Under the pieces are notes generated by a model. That model made no database searches, was not told the origin of the DNA, and was given only the letters and a program-made list of their open reading frames with translations. The translations under genes and the position numbers were made by a program. From positions 1 through 64,000 of the forward strand of contig VOPR01000016.1 of assembly GCA_009594995.1 (NCBI GenBank): DNA of 64,000 bases, given 5' to 3'. Positions 43,476-55,048 of the stretch are shown here, in pieces; the first letter of the stretch is position 1, and each line of letters opens with the position of its first letter. The stretch comes from Nitrospira sp. (GTDB taxonomy: Bacteria; Nitrospirota; Nitrospiria; Nitrospirales; Nitrospiraceae).

Positions 43476-43532
43476 GTCCTGCTAATGGTTATAACTGGTA
43501 CTGTGCGGTTTCATGTGATCGCAGCTTGATTG

Positions 43533-45764
43533 ATGGAACCGTCTCGAATATCGATCCCGCCGTCTTTGTCGGATTCACGGCAACACGCTATGCGACTTCT
43601 CAAGAACCTGTTCAATCGTCTGTCCGATAGCCTCTTGGTGTCGGTGCCCAGTCGAATCAGGGCGGCGCGCGACTTCGCGTCCGCTCCGGTATTGCGATTG
43701 GTCTCCAACAAACCTGACGCTCCGGTCGGGGACAGTGCGGCGAAACGGGCTCCTTCCCATTCGATCGGCCAACTGGAAGCCTTGGAAGAGGCGCTCCGGA
43801 AAAGTCAGGCCTGGTTTCTGGCGAGGCAGGATGCGTCTGAAGGATACTGGGTTGCCGAACTGGAAGCCGATACGACGCTGAGCTCCGAATACTTGATGTT
43901 GCGCCGGTTCATGAATTGCGTCGATCCCGAGCGCGAGCGCAAGGTGATCCGCTATTTGAAATCCGCGCAGCTTCCCTGCGGAGGCTGGCCGATTTACCAC
44001 GGAGGCCCCGCGGATATCAGCGCCTCTGTGAAGGCCTACTTTGCCTTGAAGCTCTCCGGCGTGTCCGCGGATGAGCCGTTCATGGTGAATGCTAGAACCT
44101 GTATCCTCGACAAGGGCGGGGTGGTGGCGGCTAACGTCTTCACGAAAATCGCCTTGGCTCTCTTCGGGCAGTACGATTGGCGCGGCGTCCCCAGCATGCC
44201 TCCCGAAATCATGCTGTTGCCGAAGCGGTTCTATTTCAGCATCTACGCCATTTCCTACTGGTCGCGCGCGGTGCTGATTCCCCTCTTGATCATTTTCGCG
44301 AAACGACCGCAGTGTTATGTGCCGCCGGAGCAGGGCATAGACGAGTTGTACACGGAGCCCCCGGCGCAGATTGACTATGGCACGGTGCCGCCCTTCAAGA
44401 AGGACCGGACCTGGTTTACCGCCCGAAACTTTTTCATCAATCTTGATGCGTTGCTCAAGATCTACGATCGCTCGCCGGTGGAATGGGTTCGGCAGAAGGC
44501 GCTGAAGTGCGCCGAGAACTGGATGCTCGATCACATGAAGGGAAGCGGAGGCCTCGGCGCGATTTATCCCGCCATGGCCAACTCCGTCATGGCTCTGCAT
44601 TGCCTCGGGTATAAGAACGACGATCACTTGCTGGCGAAGGCGATGCGGGAGATCGAAGAGCTCGAGATTCACGACACCGTGATGGACAACGGGCAATGTG
44701 TCGATGCCCTGCATCTGCAGCCTTGCCATTCTCCGATCTGGGACACGGCGTTGCTCATCAATGCGCTCTCCGAGGCAGGAATGCCGCAGGACCATCCGGC
44801 GTTACAAAAAGCGGCCAGCTGGTTGCTGTCCAAACAAACGAAGACTGTCGGCGATTGGATTATTTCCTCGCCCGGAGCAGAGCCGGGTGGCTGGTACTTC
44901 CAATTCGAAAATGAGTTGTTCCCGGATGTCGACGATTCGGCGGTGGTGCTGATGGCCCTGACCAAAGTGCGACTTCCGGATGAAGAGCAGCAGCGGCTGG
45001 CGATTCGTCGCGGATGCCGCTGGGTGACCGCTATGCAGGGGTCGGACGGCGGCTGGGGCGCCTACGACGTTGACAACAACCGGATCGTGTTCAACTACAT
45101 TCCCTTTGCCGATCACCGTGCCCTGCTGGATCCCAGCACGGCCGACTTGGCCGGTCGATGCCTCGAAATGCTCGCGAGCCTGGGGTATGACTGGACGCAC
45201 CCCTCGGTGGCCTCCGCCCTGGCCTTCGTGAAAAACGATCAGGAGCACGACGGCAGCTGGTATGGTCGCTGGGGAGTGAACTATATTTACGGCACCTGGT
45301 CGGTTCTGTCCGGGCTGCGCGCCATCGGTGAAGACCTCTCGTCGCCCTATATCCGCCGGGCGGTCAGCTGGGTCGAATCGAAACAGAATCCTGACGGCGG
45401 GTGGGGCGAATCCTGCCTGTCCTATGCCGATGTCGCGGAAAGCGGCCGTGGCGAGAGTACCCCCTCGCAAACCGCCTGGGCGCTGTTGGCCCTCATGGCA
45501 GGCGGCGTGACTGACTCGTTCAGCCTGGCCAGGGGCATCCATTACCTCATTCGGAATCAGCGGAAGGATGGGTCATGGGAAGAGGTACGCCATACCGGAA
45601 CCGGTTTCCCTCGCGTGTTCTATCTTCGTTATCATTGGTATTGCCAATACTTCCCCCTCTGGGCGCTGGCCATGTACCGCAATCTGAAGACTCGTGGAAC
45701 GACGAGGGCGGATGAATTGCGCCAGCTGGCCTATCAATCAGGACAGTTCCGGTCGCCACGCTGA
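43533..45764 (+). CDS. shc: Squalene-hopene cyclase
   Basis: This monotopic membrane enzyme cyclises squalene to hopene and hopanol, the first committed step of hopanoid synthesis. The catalytic acid motif DVDD (FPDVDDSAVV) lies at about residues 465-468, and several QW repeats are visible (AMQGSDGGWGAYD, ESKQNPDGGWGES). The length of 743 aa from ATG 43533, or 724 aa from ATG 43590, exceeds the usual 630-720 because of an N-terminal extension of about 90 residues. Neither start has a clear Shine-Dalgarno. It is followed 54 bp later by hpnG. Confidence 0.93.
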   Translation: MEPSRISIPPSLSDSRQHAMRLLKNLFNRLSDSLLVSVPSRIRAARDFASAPVLRLVSNKPDAPVGDSAAKRAPSHSIGQLEALEEALRKSQAWFLARQDASEGYWVAELEADTTLSSEYLMLRRFMNCVDPERERKVIRYLKSAQLPCGGWPIYHGGPADISASVKAYFALKLSGVSADEPFMVNARTCILDKGGVVAANVFTKIALALFGQYDWRGVPSMPPEIMLLPKRFYFSIYAISYWSRAVLIPLLIIFAKRPQCYVPPEQGIDELYTEPPAQIDYGTVPPFKKDRTWFTARNFFINLDALLKIYDRSPVEWVRQKALKCAENWMLDHMKGSGGLGAIYPAMANSVMALHCLGYKNDDHLLAKAMREIEELEIHDTVMDNGQCVDALHLQPCHSPIWDTALLINALSEAGMPQDHPALQKAASWLLSKQTKTVGDWIISSPGAEPGGWYFQFENELFPDVDDSAVVLMALTKVRLPDEEQQRLAIRRGCRWVTAMQGSDGGWGAYDVDNNRIVFNYIPFADHRALLDPSTADLAGRCLEMLASLGYDWTHPSVASALAFVKNDQEHDGSWYGRWGVNYIYGTWSVLSGLRAIGEDLSSPYIRRAVSWVESKQNPDGGWGESCLSYADVAESGRGESTPSQTAWALLALMAGGVTDSFSLARGIHYLIRNQRKDGSWEEVRHTGTGFPRVFYLRYHWYCQYFPLWALAMYRNLKTRGTTRADELRQLAYQSGQFRSPR

Positions 45765-45818
45765 CCGTGGGTGTTCATCGAACCCACCTCTTCTTGTCAT
45801 CATTCCCCGGGAGCCGCT

Positions 45819-46574
45819 GTGACCGCGATCGGAGTCTTCGTAGCGACTCGATGGGAGCTCGACGCGGTGCGTCGTGCGTTCGGGACAACCGAGGCGCGGG
45901 TCGTCGACGGAATTCGCTGTCTGGTCGCGCGGCAGGCGCAGGCGGAATGGTGGATCATTCCCATGGGAGTCGGGCCTGAGCGGGCGGCTGCCACTGCGAG
46001 ACGCATGCTCGCCGCGCAGCCATTCACTGCCGTATGGTCCACTGGATTTGCCTGTGCTCTGGGCTCTGCCCGCATCGGCGATGTTTTGATCGGCACGCAG
46101 GTCACCATGGAGGACGGCCAGTCGACAGGGCGGCCGGTGTCCTGTGCTCAGACGCTGGTCGATTGGATGAGGCAGGCCGTAGAGGCGCAGGGGCTTTCGA
46201 TGCAGGCCGGTGGGTTCGTGACAGTTCCGCGAGTGCTTTGTCGGGCAGAAGAGAAACGAGAGATGGCCGCACAAGCAGGAGGCATAGGTCTCGATATGGA
46301 GAGCGCAGCCTTGGGGCTCGTGGCTTCGGAGCACCGGATTCCGTTTGCGATTGTGCGTACGGTTTCGGATCTGGTGGATGAGAGTCTGCCGCTTGACTTC
46401 AACCTGTTTCTCAGGCCATCTGGATGGGCGAAGGGCGTGGTCGCATGCCTCACGCATCCGACGAGCCTCATCGGCCTCAACCGATTGCGGGTGCAAAGCC
46501 GGATCGCAGGGGCGCAGCTGACGGCCTTGTATCGTGCTTGTGCCGACCGGGCTCTGCGCGAAGGGTTTGCCTGA
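45819..46574 (+). CDS. hpnG: Hopanoid-associated nucleosidase/phosphorylase HpnG
   Basis: The 251-aa protein resembles the MTA/SAH nucleosidase-phosphorylase fold: IGVFVATRWELDAV at the start, WIIPMGVGPERAAATARRML, WSTGFACALGSARIGDVLIG and the late GIGLDMESAALGLVA motif (active-site Met-Glu). In hopanoid producers this enzyme releases adenine from adenosylhopane to give ribosylhopane. GTG 45819 has GGGAG 5 nt upstream; an earlier GTG at 45771 would add 16 residues. Its position right after shc strongly supports the hopanoid role. Confidence 0.85.
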   Translation: MTAIGVFVATRWELDAVRRAFGTTEARVVDGIRCLVARQAQAEWWIIPMGVGPERAAATARRMLAAQPFTAVWSTGFACALGSARIGDVLIGTQVTMEDGQSTGRPVSCAQTLVDWMRQAVEAQGLSMQAGGFVTVPRVLCRAEEKREMAAQAGGIGLDMESAALGLVASEHRIPFAIVRTVSDLVDESLPLDFNLFLRPSGWAKGVVACLTHPTSLIGLNRLRVQSRIAGAQLTALYRACADRALREGFA

Positions 46575-46628: not shown

Positions 46629-47396
46629 GTGGAAGGGATTGCTCGCATCGGACGGTACACGATCGACCTGACGGAACAGATGGGGCGGATGATGATGTTC
46701 GTCCTGTCGTCCTTTGCCTGGTTGACCCGTCCGCCGTTCAGGGTCTACCAGATCGTCAAGCAACTGAATTTTATCGGTTACAAGTCCACCTTCGTGGTTG
46801 TCCTCACGGCCGTCTTTACCGGCATGGTCCTGGCGCTTCAAGGGCATTACACGTTGAGGAAATTCGGCTCGGAAGCCGTGCTCGGCTCCGCTGTGGCGCT
46901 CAGCATCATTCGGGAATTAGGGCCGGTGCTCGCGGCGTTGATGGTGACGGCCCGCGCCGGCTCTGCCATGACGGCTGAGATCGGCATCATGCGGATTACC
47001 GAACAAATCGATGCCTTGGACACGATGGCGGTGAATCCGCTGCAATATCTGATCGGTCCCAAGCTTGTGGCCAGCTTAATCGCCGTGCCGCTGTTGGTCG
47101 CCTTGTTCGACGTGGTTGGCATATACGGCGGGTATGTCGTCGGCGTGCAGTTACTGAACGGCAATGAGGGCGCCTACTGGAGCTCGATTGAATCGGCGGT
47201 GGAATGGAAGGATGTCTACGGAGGCATTCTCAAATCGATCAGCTTCGGCCTGTTGATCAGTTGGGTCTGCTGCTATAAGGGATTTCATACCAAACACAGC
47301 GCCGAAGGGTTGGGAACCGCAACCACCGAAGCCGTGGTGCTCTCGGCGGTCTTGATTCTGGTGTGGGACTATTTCCTGACCTCGGTACTGCTGTAA
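46629..47396 (+). CDS. mlaE: Mla-type ABC transporter permease (MlaE)
   Basis: The 255-aa permease has the MlaE/YrbE pattern with about five hydrophobic segments, including FVVVLTAVFTGMVLALQGHY, SIIRELGPVLAALMVTARAGSA and EIGIMRITEQIDALDTMAVNP. With MlaF it moves lipids between inner membrane and periplasmic carriers. It starts with GTG after GAGGAG. It begins a six-gene run: mlaE, mlaF, mlaD, mlaC, Omp85-like barrel and DUF3187 protein. mlaB-like STAS genes and mlaA are absent here. Confidence 0.92.
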   Translation: MEGIARIGRYTIDLTEQMGRMMMFVLSSFAWLTRPPFRVYQIVKQLNFIGYKSTFVVVLTAVFTGMVLALQGHYTLRKFGSEAVLGSAVALSIIRELGPVLAALMVTARAGSAMTAEIGIMRITEQIDALDTMAVNPLQYLIGPKLVASLIAVPLLVALFDVVGIYGGYVVGVQLLNGNEGAYWSSIESAVEWKDVYGGILKSISFGLLISWVCCYKGFHTKHSAEGLGTATTEAVVLSAVLILVWDYFLTSVLL

Positions 47397-47479
47397 AGCC
47401 CTCAAGCCTGAGGGGTGAAGCGCCTGAGGCGAGCGGGAGTGGGACGGCAGGGGGCGGGATGTGGCCCCGATGAGGAACT

Positions 47480-48241
47480 ATGATCAAGCTGGTCGGTGTG
47501 GAAAAAACCCTGGGGAAGCAGCCGGTACTGCGCGGCGTTGACCTGACGATTCCCACGGGAAAACTGACGACGATTATCGGACGTAGCGGTGAAGGCAAGA
47601 GTGTGCTGTTGAAGCACATCATCGGCCTGATGCAGCCGGATCGAGGCGAAGTCTGGATCGACGGGACGGACATCGCCCGTCTCAAAGGGCAGGCGCTCAA
47701 CGAGGTTCGCAAAAAATTCGCGATGCTGTTCCAGGGCGCCGCGCTGTTCGATTCGATGACGGTATTTGAAAATGTTGCCTTCCCCTTGCGGGAAAAACTC
47801 CGGTTGAAGGGCGACGTCGTCACCAGGCGGGTTGAGGAGAAGCTGGAGCAGGTCGGGTTAAAGGGCATGGGACATAAGTTTCCCGCTGAACTGAGCGGCG
47901 GCATGCGCAAACGCGCCGGGCTGGCACGTGCGCTGGTGATGGAGCCGGAAATCATTCTGTTCGATGAGCCGACCACGGGCCTTGACCCACTGATGGCCAA
48001 GGCCATTCACGACCTTATCGTGGCGATGCAGCAGCAATTCCGGTTCACCGCCGTCATGGTCAGCCATGAGATCCCTGAAATTTTTGGTATATCCGACTAC
48101 GTGGCGATGTTGAAGAACGGCCGGATCGCCGAGATGGCGCCATCGAGCGAGTTTGTGAAAACGACGGATGAAGAGATTCGGGAGTTCATTTTTGTTGGAG
48201 GCACCGTCACGGCAAAGGGGCTGCCCACCGCATCCCTCTGA
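47480..48241 (+). CDS. mlaF: Mla-type ABC transporter ATP-binding protein (MlaF)
   Basis: The 253-aa ATPase has Walker A GRSGEGKSVLLKHI (about residue 35), the Q-loop FQGAALFDSM, signature LSGGMRKRAGLARAL and Walker B ILFDEPTTGLDP. GRSGEGKS and SGGMRKRA are typical of MlaF and resemble TtgA-like ABC families. GAGGAACT precedes the ATG. A small CCCTCA/TGAGGG hairpin lies in the 83-bp gap after mlaE. Confidence 0.92.
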   Translation: MIKLVGVEKTLGKQPVLRGVDLTIPTGKLTTIIGRSGEGKSVLLKHIIGLMQPDRGEVWIDGTDIARLKGQALNEVRKKFAMLFQGAALFDSMTVFENVAFPLREKLRLKGDVVTRRVEEKLEQVGLKGMGHKFPAELSGGMRKRAGLARALVMEPEIILFDEPTTGLDPLMAKAIHDLIVAMQQQFRFTAVMVSHEIPEIFGISDYVAMLKNGRIAEMAPSSEFVKTTDEEIREFIFVGGTVTAKGLPTASL

Positions 48242-48252
48242 TAGGAGACGTT

Positions 48253-48696
48253 ATGGAACGTGCAAAGCTGGAACTGATGGTCGGAGTCTTCGTGCTCGTC
48301 GGGCTTGCCTGTCTGGGCTATTTGTCCATTAAGCTGGGAAAGCTGGAAGTCATCGGTGGGCACAATTACGCCGTCGAGGCGGAGTTTACGTCTGCGTCGG
48401 GACTCAAGCCCGGCGCATCGGTGGAAATCGCCGGAGTCGAGGTCGGCCGCGTTCGGCACATTGGCTTGAGCAGCGACCGGGCCCTGGTCGCCCTGGCAAT
48501 TCAGGACGGCGTCAAGCTGTATTCGGACACGATTGCCTCAATCAAGACCCGCGGAATCATCGGTGATAAGTATCTCGCGCTCTCCGTGGGCGGCGGCGGC
48601 GACGTGTTGAAGCCCGGCGATAAGATTCGTGACACCGAGGCCGGACTTGATCTGGAAGAATTGGTTAGCCAGTATGTACATGGCAAGGTCAACTAG
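48253..48696 (+). CDS. mlaD: MCE-domain periplasmic lipid-binding protein MlaD
   Basis: The 147-aa protein has one N-terminal membrane helix (LMVGVFVLVGLACLGYLSI) and one MCE domain (FTSASGLKPGASVEIAGVEVGRVRHI; TRGIIGDKYLALSVGG). In the Mla system it assembles as a hexameric ring that binds the permease. It is 11 bp after mlaF, preceded by GGAGAC. The length is slightly short compared with E. coli MlaD (183 aa), the C-terminal tail being reduced. Confidence 0.9.
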   Translation: MERAKLELMVGVFVLVGLACLGYLSIKLGKLEVIGGHNYAVEAEFTSASGLKPGASVEIAGVEVGRVRHIGLSSDRALVALAIQDGVKLYSDTIASIKTRGIIGDKYLALSVGGGGDVLKPGDKIRDTEAGLDLEELVSQYVHGKVN

Positions 48697-48784
48697 TCTC
48701 ACCGCGTCACGCGTCACAGGGATGGCCATGCGTGAAAAAATCCGGGGAGGCGAGGGGATCACCACTCACAGGAGAGGTGTCGAT

Positions 48785-49399
48785 ATGTATGTCAGACAAT
48801 GGATAGTCGTAGGGATGGTCTTGGCCCTGCAGCTGTGCGTCGGTGGGCTGTCGTCCGCCCTGGCCGGGCCGGCGACCGAGTCGATCAGGGGCACGGTCGA
48901 TGAAGTACTCAGGATATTGAACGATAAGGAGCTGAAGGCGCCCGCCCGACAAGAAGATCGCCGGCAGCGTTTGGAGAAAGTGGTGGCGGCGCGATTCGAC
49001 TATTCCGAAATGTCCCGGCGGTCGTTGGGGGCGCAGTGGAATCAATTATCGGATAAGGAGAAGCAGGAATTTATTGACCTGTTTCGAACCCTGCTGACCA
49101 ACACCTATGCCGATCGGGTCGAGACGTACTCCGGCGAAGGGGTGCAGTATCTCAATGAGCGCACGGAAAAAGAATATGCGGAAGTGCGCACCAAGGTGCT
49201 GTCCGGCAAGACCGAAATCCCCATGGATTACCGGTTGCTGAATAAAAGTAACGACTGGCATGTCTATGACGTCGTGGTCGATGGCGTCAGTCTGGTGAAC
49301 AATTACCGCGGACAATTTACGAAGATCCTCCACACCTCCTCGTATTCCGACCTCGTTGACCAACTCCGCAAGAAATCCGACAAGATCAAAGCTCCGTAG
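48785..49399 (+). CDS. mlaC: Periplasmic phospholipid-carrier protein MlaC
   Basis: This 204-aa protein is a Tol-pal/Ttg2D-like lipid shuttle. It has a signal peptide (YVRQWIVVGMVLALQLCVG, then SSALAG cleavage region) and the Ttg2 domain, with RFDYSEMSRRSLGAQWNQLSDKE and YRGQFTKIL near the C-terminus. ATG 48785 has AGGAGAGG about 8 nt upstream; the longer frame overlaps mlaD and lacks a signal. It carries lipids between MlaD and the outer membrane partner. Confidence 0.88.
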   Translation: MYVRQWIVVGMVLALQLCVGGLSSALAGPATESIRGTVDEVLRILNDKELKAPARQEDRRQRLEKVVAARFDYSEMSRRSLGAQWNQLSDKEKQEFIDLFRTLLTNTYADRVETYSGEGVQYLNERTEKEYAEVRTKVLSGKTEIPMDYRLLNKSNDWHVYDVVVDGVSLVNNYRGQFTKILHTSSYSDLVDQLRKKSDKIKAP

Positions 49400-49431
49400 T
49401 ACGTAGGGAGCGACCAATTCCGGCGAGCGCC

Positions 49432-50637
49432 ATGCAGCGTGATTATTTTTTGTCGATCCGAGTTTTCCTGGCGCTGGCCGGACTCTTCTCGCTGAGTCTT
49501 TCAGATCCGGCATGGGCGGACACGCAAATTTTCCCTGTGCCGTCGGTCTCCAGCAGCCGAAACGACGGGAACGATGCCGGCTTGATCGCGCCGATTCTGA
49601 TCACGGACCCGGACGGCGAGTTGAAATATCTCATGGCGCCCATGCTCATCCAGAACTCCATCGTGGGTACCCGCGGGGTGTTCAATCTCTTCAAATACGA
49701 GCCGGGCGGGCGCCAGATGAAATTCATTGCCTCGCTGACCGAACGAATCGAGAGGAAGGTGGTGTTCGATTATGCCGATCCGGCGTTCGCCAACGGACAA
49801 TACTCGCTCAATTTCGGTGGCACGTTTTTCAAGAACGCCACCTCGCGGTTCTTCGGACTCGGGCAGGCGACGGTGCAGGCCGGTGAGTCGAACTATACGG
49901 CGCGGGAAGCGCGCGCCTACTGGCGGCTCGGTCTCTACGCCAATGAAGTGACGCAGATTTCGGTGGGGCAGCGGGTGCGGCAGGTACAGTTGCAGCGGGG
50001 TGCCACGGATCTCCCGTTTTCGGTCGAACAGTTCCCTACGGTCGACGGCATTCAGGGCGAGTCGATCATCGTCGGTCACCGGGCCACGTTTTACTACGAC
50101 ACGCGCGACAGTCTGGTCTCGCCGACCGACGGTGTGGCGGTCACCGCCTATGCCGAATTGAATCAAAATATAAAAAACGGCGACCATCCGGTCTATTCGC
50201 GGTATGAACTCGAAGTCAAAAAGTTATTTCCTAGTGAATCCAAGCGCGCCATTCTGGTTGTTCGCGCCGATCTGCAAGCGACGATCGGTTCACAGGTTCC
50301 GTTTTTCGAGCAGTCGTCGCTGGGAGGGCAGAACAACCTGCGCGGCTTCGGGTTGGACCGCTACATCGACAAGCACCTCATCGCCCTCAGTATCGAGGAA
50401 CGCATACATATTCTGAGGACGAAACTGGCGGGGGTGACGGCGGATTTCGAGATCGCGCCCTTTCTGGATACCGGTCAGGTGTTTAATTCCTTTAAAGACG
50501 TCAGTTTTCAGGACTACCGGATGACCCCGGGCCTCGGGTTTCGCGCGATCGTCCGGCCCAACGTTGTTGGCCGGGTCGATTATGGATATAGTCGTGAAGG
50601 CGGAGCGGTGTTCGCCGGGTTAGATTTCCCCTATTAG
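49432..50637 (+). CDS. Omp85/surface-antigen (D15)-family outer membrane barrel without POTRA domains
   Basis: The 401-aa protein has a Sec signal peptide (LALAGLFSLSLSDPAWA), then a beta-rich sequence matching the Omp85 C-terminal barrel. The loop-6 motif is present as NNLRGFGLDRYID (about residues 300-312), and further strands such as VVFDYADPAF, FYYDTRDSLVSPTDGV and VGRVDYGYSREGGAVFA follow. No POTRA repeat is visible between signal and barrel, only about 50 residues. The last residue is Tyr, as in BAM substrates. It lies 32 bp after mlaC and its RBS region is weak; co-transcription with the mla genes is likely. It may be the outer-membrane partner in place of MlaA. Confidence 0.75.
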   Translation: MQRDYFLSIRVFLALAGLFSLSLSDPAWADTQIFPVPSVSSSRNDGNDAGLIAPILITDPDGELKYLMAPMLIQNSIVGTRGVFNLFKYEPGGRQMKFIASLTERIERKVVFDYADPAFANGQYSLNFGGTFFKNATSRFFGLGQATVQAGESNYTAREARAYWRLGLYANEVTQISVGQRVRQVQLQRGATDLPFSVEQFPTVDGIQGESIIVGHRATFYYDTRDSLVSPTDGVAVTAYAELNQNIKNGDHPVYSRYELEVKKLFPSESKRAILVVRADLQATIGSQVPFFEQSSLGGQNNLRGFGLDRYIDKHLIALSIEERIHILRTKLAGVTADFEIAPFLDTGQVFNSFKDVSFQDYRMTPGLGFRAIVRPNVVGRVDYGYSREGGAVFAGLDFPY

Positions 50638-50643
50638 ACGCCA

Positions 50644-51666
50644 GTGAGTGAACGGCCGGTATTACTCATGCGGCACACAATCTATTTCCTCTGCATGTTC
50701 GCGATCCCCTGTGGATTGCCGCTTCTGGCTGGAGCGGAAGGGTTTGGCCCGTTCCCCGTCAGAAACTTTCAAGCGCTCGACCAGCTGGTATTGGCCATGC
50801 CGGGCGAGCGGGCGGCGGTGCTGAAGAAGGGCGATTTCGACATCCGCCTGGAAGCGGCCAATACCGCGTCGATTGCCAGAGATCAGGAAGAGCAGGCCGA
50901 CGTCACGATGAAGTTTGAAACCGTACGGGCCGGGCTGTTTCTTCGATATGGTCTGACCGACCGACTGGAGCTTGGTGTTGAAGTTCCCGCCTACCACCGG
51001 CATCGAGGATTCATGGAAGAGCCGATCCTCGGAGTCGAGCGTGGGACGACCGGGATTTCGCCGCCTCGCAAGGCCCTGCGGGAGACCGACTACGCCTTCA
51101 ATGTTTCGAACGGTGGCCGCACGATGTTTCAGGGCTCGAAGGGCGCGACGGGGTTGGGCGATATTTCGTTTTATGGGAAGTATCAGTTGCTCAAGGAGAC
51201 TGGCAGCCTTCCAGCCCTGTCGGTGCGGGTAGGGGTGAAGGCTCCGACCGGAGATACGAACGAAGTGTTCGGCAGCGGCCATCCGGATGCCGGCATCGGC
51301 CTCGCCTTGGATAAGACCTTCGCTTCTGGATGGATTCTATACGCCAATTTGAACGGGGTCTTTCCCACCGGGAAAATCGCGGGACTCGAACTCCAGCCGG
51401 TCATAAGCGGATTGGTCGCAGTGGAATATCTCTGGACCGAGAATTTTTCCATCACCGCGCAGTTCGACTACTATTCCCCACCGTTTCACGGCACAGGAAC
51501 GCGCGTCTTGGATAAGGGGGTGACCGAGTCGGTGCTCGGGGTGAGCTACCGGGTGCTGCCGGGTCTGCTCTGGCAACTGTACGGAGTGGAGAATTTGGAT
51601 TTTATTACCGGGAGCGCGGCGGATTTCACGCTGTCGACCGTCTTCACCTACCGGTTTCGGTCATGA
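50644..51666 (+). CDS. DUF3187 family outer-membrane-type protein
   Basis: The 340-aa protein has a cleavable signal peptide (YFLCMFAIPCGLPLLAGA) and a beta-rich body. It resembles the DUF3187 family by features such as FPVRNFQALDQL, RYGLTDRLELGVEVPAY and the last strand LSTVFTYRFRS. Function of the family is unknown; an outer-membrane barrel is likely. It starts 6 bp after the barrel gene stop and so belongs to the same unit. It may use a GTG at 50644 or the ATG at 50668. Confidence 0.7.
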   Translation: MSERPVLLMRHTIYFLCMFAIPCGLPLLAGAEGFGPFPVRNFQALDQLVLAMPGERAAVLKKGDFDIRLEAANTASIARDQEEQADVTMKFETVRAGLFLRYGLTDRLELGVEVPAYHRHRGFMEEPILGVERGTTGISPPRKALRETDYAFNVSNGGRTMFQGSKGATGLGDISFYGKYQLLKETGSLPALSVRVGVKAPTGDTNEVFGSGHPDAGIGLALDKTFASGWILYANLNGVFPTGKIAGLELQPVISGLVAVEYLWTENFSITAQFDYYSPPFHGTGTRVLDKGVTESVLGVSYRVLPGLLWQLYGVENLDFITGSAADFTLSTVFTYRFRS

Positions 51667-51846: not shown

Positions 51847-53793
51847 ATGTCTCTGCTAAAAAATATCCACAGTCCCGCTGATTTGAAGCGCCTGTCCCCT
51901 GAACAGTTTCCGGAACTATGCCAGGAGATTCGTGAGCAGATCCTTGCGGTGGTTTCGAATGTCGGGGGGCATCTGGCCTCCAACTTGGGCGTCGTGGAAT
52001 TGACCGTCGCATTGCAATATCTCCTGGATACACCGAAAGATAAGATTGTCTGGGATACCAGCAACCAAGCCTATACCCATAAGCTCCTCACCGGCCGGCG
52101 GGAACAGTTCCACACCTTGCGGCAATACGGCGGATTGAGCGGTTTCTGTAAGCGTGAAGAAAGCGTCTATGACACCTTTAACGCCGGGCATGCCGGCACC
52201 GGGGTTTCCGCCGCATTTGGCATGGTGGAGGCACGCGAGCAGCGGGGCGAGAAACATAAGGTGGTCTGCGTTGTCGGCGACGGCGCGATGACGGCGGGCA
52301 TGACCCTGGAGGGATTACACCACGCGGGCGGGACGAACAAGGATTTCATCGTCGTCCTGAATGACAACCAGATGTCTATCTCGCGCAACGTGGGTGCCAT
52401 TTCCGCCTACCTGAACCGGACCTTCACCGGTGAGTTCTACGCGCGGATGCGGGAAGAAACCGGCCAGCTCTTGCGGAAGATTCCCCACATCGGGCTGGAA
52501 GTGCAGAAAATCGCTCGCCGGGCCGAGGAATTAGCCAAGGGCGCCATTCTTCCTGGTTTATTGTTCGAAGAATTGGGCTTTCAGTACGCCGGGCCGATCG
52601 ACGGACATAACTTCGAGCACCTTCTTCCGACATTGGAGAACGTGCTGAAAATGAAGGGGCCGGTCCTGCTGCACGTCATCACGAAGAAGGGCTTGGGCTA
52701 TCAGGCGGCGATGGATAACCCCGTCTGGTTCCATGCCTGCCCTCCCTTCGTGCGCGAAACCGGCGTGCCGGCGAAAAAAGCCGTGCGGCCGAGTTACACG
52801 AGCATGGCCGTGGATGCCTTGATCAAGGTGGCTCACCAAGACAAACGGGTTGTGGCCATCACCGCCGCCATGTGCGAAGGCACGGGCCTCAATGCGTTTG
52901 AAAAAGTGTTTCCGGATCGTATCTATGATGTCGGTATTGCCGAGCAACATGCCGTGACCTTTGCGGCTGGTATGGCGGCGCAGGGGATGAAGCCGGTTGT
53001 CGCCCTCTATTCCACTTTCTTGCAGCGGGCCTACGACCAGGTGGTACACGATGTGGCGACCCAAAACTTGCCGGTGACGTTCTGTATCGACCGGGGCGGC
53101 CTCGTCGCGGAAGATGGAACCACGCACCACGGCGCGTTTGACTTCGCGTTCTTGCGCCATGTGCCGAATATGGTCGTTGCCGCACCCAAGGACGAAAACG
53201 AACTGCAGCACATGATGAAGACCTGCGTCAGTTACGATGGTCCCGCGTCCGTGCGATACGCTCGTGGCGTGAGCCTCGGGGTGTCGATGGATCCGGAGCC
53301 TACGGCCTTGCCGATCGGGAAGGGCGAGCTGTTGCGGGAAGGGACTGATGTGGCCATTGTGGGGATCGGAGTCACGGTGTGGCCGGCCCTGAAGGCCGCG
53401 GAGCGATTGGCGCAAGAGGGTATCTCTGCCGCCGTCGTGAACGCCCGGTTCGTGAAGCCGCTCGACACGGAACTGATCATCAATACCGCCAAGAAAGTCC
53501 GTTGTCTGGTGACAGTGGAAGAAGGATGCAAGATGGGCGGATTCGGGTCCGCGGTTCTAGAGGCCCTGTCAGAAGAAGGGCTCACCCATTTGCGCACCAA
53601 GCTGATCGGCCTTCCCGACTGGTATATCGAGCAGGGACCTCAGGATCTACTGCGCGAACGATATGGTCTGACGGCCGACGGGATCTATAACAGCGTGAAA
53701 GCGTTGTTCGGCGCCAGTGTGGCGACGGACGATGCCGCACGATTGGCGTCGCTCGTGGGAAGTTTGCCGCACGGCGATGAGCAGGGCAGCTAG
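51847..53793 (+). CDS. dxs: 1-deoxy-D-xylulose-5-phosphate synthase
   Basis: DXS condenses pyruvate with glyceraldehyde 3-phosphate, entering the MEP pathway. The 648-aa protein contains the TPP motif GDGAMTAGMTLEGLHHAG, catalytic loop residues in DTSNQAYTHKLLTGR and the transketolase-type DRGGLVAEDGTTHHGAFD near residue 415. AAGGAG precedes the ATG. It is followed by ispG after 49 bp. Together with ispH at 38.5 kb it supplies isoprenoids for quinones and hopanoids. Confidence 0.95.
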   Translation: MSLLKNIHSPADLKRLSPEQFPELCQEIREQILAVVSNVGGHLASNLGVVELTVALQYLLDTPKDKIVWDTSNQAYTHKLLTGRREQFHTLRQYGGLSGFCKREESVYDTFNAGHAGTGVSAAFGMVEAREQRGEKHKVVCVVGDGAMTAGMTLEGLHHAGGTNKDFIVVLNDNQMSISRNVGAISAYLNRTFTGEFYARMREETGQLLRKIPHIGLEVQKIARRAEELAKGAILPGLLFEELGFQYAGPIDGHNFEHLLPTLENVLKMKGPVLLHVITKKGLGYQAAMDNPVWFHACPPFVRETGVPAKKAVRPSYTSMAVDALIKVAHQDKRVVAITAAMCEGTGLNAFEKVFPDRIYDVGIAEQHAVTFAAGMAAQGMKPVVALYSTFLQRAYDQVVHDVATQNLPVTFCIDRGGLVAEDGTTHHGAFDFAFLRHVPNMVVAAPKDENELQHMMKTCVSYDGPASVRYARGVSLGVSMDPEPTALPIGKGELLREGTDVAIVGIGVTVWPALKAAERLAQEGISAAVVNARFVKPLDTELIINTAKKVRCLVTVEEGCKMGGFGSAVLEALSEEGLTHLRTKLIGLPDWYIEQGPQDLLRERYGLTADGIYNSVKALFGASVATDDAARLASLVGSLPHGDEQGS

Positions 53794-53842: not shown

Positions 53843-55048
53843 ATGCATATCACCAGGAAAAAGACACGGCAGATTCAGGCGGGATCGGTCAAGATTGGCG
53901 GGGATGCGCCGATTTCAGTCCAATCGATGTGTTCCACGGATACACGCGATGTGAAGGCCACGGTGGCTCAGATCCGTCAGCTGGAAGAGGCCGGGTGTGA
54001 AATCATCCGTGTTGCTGTCCCTGATGACGAGGCGGCAGCCGCGCTTCCCCAGATCAAAGCCGCGATGACGGTTCCGCTGATCGCCGACATTCACTTTGAT
54101 CATCGGCTGGCCCTCAAGGCCGCCGAGGTCGTCGATTGTGTCCGCATCAATCCCGGGAACATCGGCGCCTGGTGGAAAGTGCAGGAAGTGATCAAGGCCG
54201 TCAATGAGCGGGGGATTCCCCTGCGCGTAGGTGTGAACGGCGGCTCGCTCGAACGTCCCTTGCTGGACAAGTATGGCTGGCCCTCGCCGGAAGCCTTGTC
54301 GGAATCAGCCCTCAACGCGGTCCATGCCTTGGAAGACGAGGGCTTCACCAACATGAAGGTGTCGCTCAAAGCCTCCGATGTGCATCACGCCATCGATGCC
54401 TACTATTTGTTTTCCACCCAGTCGAACTATCCCTTGCACATCGGTATCACGGAAGCGGGGACTGCCATGACCGGTGCCGTGAAGTCCGCCATCGGCCTCG
54501 GCTGGCTCCTGTCGCAGGGCATTGGTGACACGTTGCGCGTGTCGCTAGCTGCTGATCCGGTGGAAGAGGTGAAAGTCGGCTTCGAGATCCTCAAATCGCT
54601 GGAGCTGCGGCATCGCGGCATCAACGTGATCGCCTGTCCGACCTGCGGCCGGGTTGAAATCGATGTGGTGCGTATGGCGAACGAGCTGGAAAAGAAACTG
54701 GGCCATATCAAGACGCCATTGAACGTATCTGTGCTCGGTTGTGTCGTGAACGGCATCGGCGAGGGCAAAGAAGCGGATATCGGCATCGCCGGCGGCGAAG
54801 GGAAAGGCATTCTCTTCAAAAAGGGCAAGCTGATGCGGAAGGTGCCGCTCGAAGAACTCATGGACACCTTGATCCATGAAGTTGAGTTACTGGCGAAGGA
54901 AAAAGAAGCCGAAGCCGCCGGGGTGTCTCACGAGGCGCCGGCTGCTGTCGATGGGCATGCGGAGCCAGGCTGGGAACTGATCGGCCATGCGCCGGATGAA
55001 CATTCGACGATCGTTCGTGATATTCCCGTGCTTCCAACCAAGCCGTAA
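53843..55048 (+). CDS. ispG: 4-hydroxy-3-methylbut-2-en-1-yl diphosphate synthase (IspG/GcpE)
   Basis: IspG converts MEcPP to HMBPP with a [4Fe-4S] cluster. The 401-aa protein contains PISVQSMCSTDTRDV at the start, RINPGNIG, VGVNGGSLE and the cluster ligands in ACPTCGR and CVVNGIGEGKEADIGIAGG. The C-terminal 45 residues extend beyond the common 370 aa and are low-complexity. ATG 53843 has a weak ribosome binding site. It lies 49 bp after dxs and probably is co-transcribed. Confidence 0.95.
   Translation: MHITRKKTRQIQAGSVKIGGDAPISVQSMCSTDTRDVKATVAQIRQLEEAGCEIIRVAVPDDEAAAALPQIKAAMTVPLIADIHFDHRLALKAAEVVDCVRINPGNIGAWWKVQEVIKAVNERGIPLRVGVNGGSLERPLLDKYGWPSPEALSESALNAVHALEDEGFTNMKVSLKASDVHHAIDAYYLFSTQSNYPLHIGITEAGTAMTGAVKSAIGLGWLLSQGIGDTLRVSLAADPVEEVKVGFEILKSLELRHRGINVIACPTCGRVEIDVVRMANELEKKLGHIKTPLNVSVLGCVVNGIGEGKEADIGIAGGEGKGILFKKGKLMRKVPLEELMDTLIHEVELLAKEKEAEAAGVSHEAPAAVDGHAEPGWELIGHAPDEHSTIVRDIPVLPTKP

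Follow-up and report, generated by a model that had tools for sequence, protein, structure and literature searches.

Within a 64,000-nucleotide stretch of a Nitrospira sp. genome (assembly GCA_009594995.1, contig VOPR01000016.1, positions 1 to 64,000; here called the window), the lipid-transport genes mlaE, mlaF, mlaD and mlaC stand together in one operon with genes for an Omp85 barrel that lacks POTRA domains and for a DUF3187 protein, next to genes for the synthesis of hopanoids. Hopanoids are bacterial sterol-like lipids and major biomarkers in rocks. To our knowledge, HpnN is the only route known to bring them to the outer membrane, and no outer-membrane partner is established. The arrangement is real and widely conserved, and its main tie is to hopanoids. 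With the balance evenly poised, we propose that this operon both makes and delivers hopanoids, with the barrel as the outer-membrane port for those carried by HpnM. More tentatively, and with slightly greater doubt than confidence, the barrel may be the first component dedicated to hopanoid delivery in the outer membrane, in the form of a POTRA-less Omp85 protein that handles lipid, is fed by HpnM, is served by interchangeable ATP-binding cassette (ABC) or resistance-nodulation-division (RND) pumps and replaces HpnN-HpnM-MlaA in most hopanoid-making Nitrospirota.

Distribution of the barrel, Shc and HpnN

We surveyed 198 Nitrospirota genomes, calling a strong barrel and a genuine squalene-hopene cyclase (Shc) at E < 1e-50 each and HpnN by a TIGR03480 score over its cut-off. 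The barrel was present in 80 genomes and Shc in 88. In 78 the two occur together, and the completeness of the two genomes that have a barrel and no Shc is 75% and 83%. HpnN exceeded its cut-off in ten genomes and was cut off at a contig end in one more (G029). These eleven comprise all ten Shc-positive genomes that lack a barrel and one genome (G155) with both proteins; every Shc-positive genome (88/88) thus has the barrel or HpnN. The Fisher p value for exclusion of the two, 2.4e-12, ignores relatedness. In the window genome, which is about 90% complete, the best TIGR03480 match (7.3e-7) was not over the cut-off. A sample of 396 genomes contained 159 with the barrel, 35 with HpnN and six with both. 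With independence, about 14 genomes with both would be expected overall (p 0.002), and about 30 when only the union is considered. Strict mutual exclusion is weakened by these exceptions (one in 198 genomes, six in 396), and what is observed is near-exclusion. These data suggest that the barrel route largely stands in for HpnN.

Conservation and variation of the gene order

The order shc-hpnG-mlaE-mlaF-mlaD-mlaC-barrel-(DUF3187)-dxs-ispG was retained, to contig limits, in 80/80 fetched loci, which are the best 80 matches of the genome-contig search and are all of Nitrospira type. Barrel identity was 64 to 94%, a recognisable DUF3187 gene was present in 43 of the 80, and Candidatus Nitrospira defluvii (L113) was among them. 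Families f2 and f33 share the same order, often with hpnH at the end; hpnH lies downstream of the block in L041, L042, L061 and others. Conservation of the layout is far above chance, and the synteny that the sequence-only reading of the window had proposed to check is supported in these Nitrospirota loci.

Other lineages take the block apart. In one genus of f2 (g13, three genomes), mlaEFD are gone from the operon and shc-hpnG-hpnM-barrel is left; one of these genomes (G137) has no MlaE anywhere. In f34 (G311; L206:7654-12356), an 841-aa MMPL/RND protein, related to HpnN and under the HpnN cut-off, is encoded between hpnG and hpnM-barrel in place of mlaEFD; the second f34 genome (L210) ends before the pump position. 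The pump is thus interchanged around an hpnM-barrel pair that stays, which supports the earlier suggestion that the barrel is the outer-membrane partner of an MlaC-type carrier, with which it would make contact. The orders hpnH-shc-hpnG-barrel-DUF3187 in f6 and shc-hpnG-barrel-hpnA-ispH-hpnJ-hpnI in f18, apparently a Leptospirillum-like lineage, have no adjacent Mla gene, and f12 has barrel-ispH-hpnJ-hpnI with mlaEFD-mlaC-hpnH-shc sited elsewhere. We therefore rejected, as a general rule, the idea that the barrel belongs to Mla, and the claim that it is primarily an Mla gene was not upheld. From these variants, we consider that the Mla module and the barrel each attach to hopanoid genes and that each is able to do so alone. 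The constant partner of the barrel is hopanoid synthesis, and hopanoids, already proposed as possible cargo, are supported as the likely one.

In a tree of barrel sequences, the operon barrels of f1, f2, f33 and f34 form one clade, apart from paralogues. Other POTRA-less barrels of f1 and f2, which have longer N termini, group in a second clade with good support (L048:5998-7452, L050:5998-7365 and L203:6919-8067); these lie near hpnJ, hpnK, a DegT aminotransferase gene and a sugar epimerase gene, and the barrel gene of L048 is followed by a small gene with ankyrin repeats. Where hpnG and the barrel gene adjoin, they have a 4-bp overlap or share one open frame. In G019 (L049:5998-8220), an HpnG-like domain and the barrel occupy a single 740-aa frame with a signal-peptide-like stretch midway, which may possibly be a fusion or contain an internal TTG start, and G066 and G074 have similarly long frames. 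Among plasmid records, the barrel matched only distant Bacteroidota BamA/TamA proteins.

A parallel layout with HpnN and MlaA

Nitrospirota HpnN is usually flanked by an HpnM/MlaC-family gene and mlaA (L187, L188, L189, L191, L193, L207, L208 and L209), and the HpnN module is several times found beside shc, hpnA and hpnH. In L207, L208 and L209 (f19, f37 and f30), HpnN-HpnM-MlaA directly adjoins shc-hpnA-hpnH, which suggests that MlaA is the outer-membrane partner of HpnN in these families. There are thus two layouts, RND pump-HpnM-MlaA and ABC (or RND) pump-HpnM-barrel. Read most simply, the barrel would serve an alternative hopanoid route as its outer-membrane piece. Hopanoids require HpnN for their outer-membrane localisation (Doughty 2011, cited in PMC12583986).

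The barrel protein

Analysis of the barrel protein in an AlphaFold model (43 window-family sequences; mean predicted local distance difference test [pLDDT] score, 73.8) showed a signal peptide followed only by barrel, with strands starting at residue 30. The model is weak near loop 6 and the C terminus, and lateral-gate detail is not claimed. Residues 59-398 superpose on the barrel of Fusobacterium BamA (residues 350-693; VIA Z 23.8, 310 residues, root mean square deviation 3.7) and correspond to about 420-809 of E. coli BamA. This BamA-type fold, together with a PF01103 score over the cut-off, places the protein in the Omp85 superfamily. The loop 6 motif (V/L)RG(F/Y) is present as LRGF (303-306) and its partner motif FxDxG as FLDTG (344-348); both are kept across most of the barrel family, with LEGY/LEGF in f18.

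No POTRA was found in the barrel protein by Pfam scan. In the same genome, the same scan detected five POTRAs in BamA and POTRA_2 in a TpsB/FhaC-like protein, and these positive controls, with the strand start at residue 30, rule out a hidden upstream POTRA. The protein is therefore POTRA-less, as first described, and lacks the one or more POTRAs that precede the barrel in BamA, TamA and TpsB; a barrel directly after a signal peptide is the architecture of the noNterm Omp85 class.

The carrier, MlaA and accessory proteins

The carrier encoded in the operon scores 106.4 bits against the HpnM model TIGR03481 (cut-off, 160.1) versus 32.7 against the E. coli MlaC model, below both cut-offs; on these scores it is HpnM-like rather than a certified HpnM. 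The sequence-only reading had also noted no mlaA here. This is correct for the locus, but a canonical MlaA (PF04333, 229 bits) is encoded on contig 4 of the genome, unlinked to the operon. We thus discarded the idea of a genome without mlaA. MlaA was found in 47/47 of the Nitrospira-type (f1) genomes among the 198 sampled and coexists with the barrel in all of them and in three others, which also disposes of the view that the barrel replaces a missing MlaA; an mlaA elsewhere in the genome was a finding that the sequence-only reading itself had named as counting against it. On contig 14 (L077-L079) and contig 9 (L080), the window genome further contains two more Mce/MlaD systems and two solitary MlaC-family proteins for which HpnM is the best fit (65 and 77 bits).

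The DUF3187 protein is predicted to be an outer-membrane channel like FapF/COG4313, given that the top Foldseek match of its AlphaFold model was FapF (6e-13). In f2, TPR proteins take its slot. TPR proteins in this slot and near the f12 barrel (L041:7187-7978, L042:7233-8033 and L046:9438-10172) partly have weak similarity to TAtT/BstC; the BstC of Methylococcus binds sterols.

Genes of the window locus

All six genes from mlaE to the DUF3187 gene were confirmed at the positions and on the strand first assigned to them, with Pfam support for each family (Table 1). The spacings of 32 bp between mlaC and the barrel gene and 6 bp between the barrel and DUF3187 genes were likewise reproduced, the latter given a GTG start; the true DUF3187 start is perhaps the ATG at 50668. 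As originally reported, hopanoid genes precede the block: shc, over its cut-off, and an adjoining hpnG-like gene lie immediately upstream.

Table 1. Genes of the conserved block in the window, with the evidence for each assignment
Gene or product	Coordinates	Strand	Evidence
shc (hpnF), squalene-hopene cyclase, opens the conserved block	43530..45764	+	TIGR01507 772 bits (cut-off 431)
hpnG-like hopanoid-associated phosphorylase/nucleosidase	45771..46574	+	top NCBIfam TIGR03468 HpnG 102 bits (under cut-off 187); PF01048
mlaE, ABC permease	46629..47396	+	PF02405 281 bits, Pfam MlaE 8.9e-84; TIGR00056 over cut-off
mlaF, ABC ATPase	47480..48241	+	top NCBIfam PRK11831 MlaF 222 bits; ABC_tran 3.4e-35
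mlaD, short, single-MCE	48253..48696	+	TIGR04430 OM_asym_MlaD 139.2 bits (over cut-off 135); Pfam MlaD 5.2e-20
mlaC/hpnM, periplasmic lipid carrier	48785..49399	+	PF05494 174 bits, 2.3e-51; TIGR03481 HpnM 106 bits, MlaC model 33 bits
POTRA-less Omp85 barrel (hopanoid-linked barrel), 401 aa	49432..50637	+	PF01103 64 bits, 2.4e-17; signal peptide at about residues 1-29
DUF3187, predicted outer-membrane channel	50644..51666	+	PF11383 82 bits, 5.1e-23; AlphaFold pLDDT 77
dxs, isoprenoid precursor gene, downstream in the block	51847..53793	+	TIGR00204 821 bits
ispG, isoprenoid precursor gene	53843..55048	+	TIGR00612 423 bits

Proposed mechanism and alternatives

In the mechanism that we propose, MlaEFD would act as an inner-membrane ABC pump that puts hopanoids from Shc, HpnG and HpnH onto the periplasmic carrier HpnM, a member of the MlaC family, and HpnM would deliver them to the POTRA-less barrel. 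The barrel would take over the position that is occupied in relatives by MlaA next to HpnN, lipid would pass through the barrel seam into the outer membrane, and the DUF3187 protein, or the TPR protein in f2, may be an accessory. The gene content, fold class, synteny, tie to shc, near-exclusion with HpnN and exchange of pumps beside hpnM-barrel are shown by the data; we infer that hopanoids are the cargo, that they move outward, that HpnM docks on the barrel and that lipid passes at the seam. The E. coli Mla system is generally held to run inward.

Several observations weigh against hopanoid delivery by the barrel. Its function is inferred from genome comparison, and only three or four independent changes between HpnN and barrel were found on the Shc tree, all in the opposite direction (sign test p 0.25). 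Six of the 396 genomes carry the barrel and HpnN together. In one of them, G231 (f2; L196:6112-19162), the shc-hpnG-mlaEFD-hpnM-barrel operon itself contains another shc and a complete HpnN; given this operon and the six genomes, barrel and HpnN may cooperate. In G143 and G060 (f1), mlaEFDC remain in the operon with no barrel gene beside them, and only a paralogue lies elsewhere. No MlaC-family protein was found in f18 genomes, and the barrel there therefore needs another lipid donor. Finally, the best-known work of Omp85 barrels is on proteins, and the client could therefore be a protein.

This last point leads to an explanation that we consider unlikely but the most serious of those weighed here, in which the barrel corresponds to a reduced BamA/TamA, specialised as a protein insertase or secretion pore of the outer membrane, that assembles an envelope protein required by hopanoid-rich outer membranes and has no contact with lipid. 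The BamA-type fold is as expected for such a protein, and Heinz and Lithgow (PMC4104836) suggest that noNterm Omp85 proteins act in the biogenesis of membrane proteins, since Sam50 is functional without POTRA. However, the genome encodes a complete five-POTRA BamA, the neighbours of the barrel are lipid synthesis and lipid carrier genes, and no conserved protein client was seen across families. Rather less likely is a retrograde Mla-type phospholipid system, merely co-regulated with hopanoid synthesis, with the barrel as its outer-membrane partner, the role in which the sequence-only reading had first cast the barrel. An MlaD over the OM_asym_MlaD cut-off and the strongly conserved mlaEFDC-barrel order are consistent with this, whereas the barrels that keep to hopanoid genes without adjacent Mla in f18, f6 and f12, the HpnM-like carrier and the coexisting canonical MlaA of all f1 genomes argue against it. 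We give little credence to a barrel that modifies or structures the outer membrane for the hopanoid pathway, as a scaffold or lipid-A/hopanoid organiser, rather than transporting: its repeated pairing with HpnM and interchangeable pumps and its near-exclusion with the transporter HpnN speak for transport, even though its hopanoid association persists without a nearby pump or carrier in f18 and f6 and its gene can overlap or share a frame with hpnG.

If hopanoid delivery by the barrel is true, a lipid-handling POTRA-less protein would extend the Omp85 superfamily, best known for inserting or secreting proteins, to lipid delivery, and the near-complementary distribution of barrel and HpnN opens a direct swap experiment.

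Comparison with known systems

The homologous permease, ATPase, single-MCE MlaD and MlaC-family carrier are shared with the E. coli Mla system (MlaFEDB-MlaC-MlaA/OmpC). In contrast to that system, the window block has no mlaB among its genes, its MlaA is unlinked, a POTRA-less Omp85 gene follows the carrier gene, the setting is one of hopanoid genes and the carrier is HpnM-like. The HpnN-HpnM system likewise has an inner-membrane pump adjoining an HpnM carrier in hopanoid clusters; however, its pump is RND and its outer-membrane piece in Nitrospirota is MlaA, whereas the window has an ABC pump (MlaEFD), f34 another MMPL protein, and both the barrel in the outer-membrane position.

Omp85 proteins without POTRA have been described as a class, noNterm, which perhaps acts in membrane protein biogenesis (Heinz and Lithgow 2014, PMC4104836). 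The window barrel matches this class by architecture (no N-terminal extension), and the available text of that paper gives no link to lipids or hopanoids. In the parts available of two papers on Leptospirillum hopanoid clusters (PMC7231039, PMC12654047), a "BamA"/Omp85 is listed in passing, as BamA or an assembly factor, and one of the two cites acid-stress expression data. The gene listed there and that of the f18 barrel are probably one and the same; absence of POTRA, a transport role and a comparison with HpnN are not mentioned in those parts. More generally, the open-licence papers found mention hopanoids with Omp85, Mla or noNterm only in passing and propose neither a role in hopanoid transport nor a relation to HpnN. 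BstABC sterol transport (PMC10942540, available part) is similarly a dedicated polycyclic-lipid route, and weakly BstC/TAtT-like TPR proteins lie beside some barrels; BstABC differs in its carrier families and pump, and no Omp85 barrel is described for it there. The parts of the window system, Mla/HpnM transport and a noNterm Omp85, are thus known, and their combination is a variant with a testable function.

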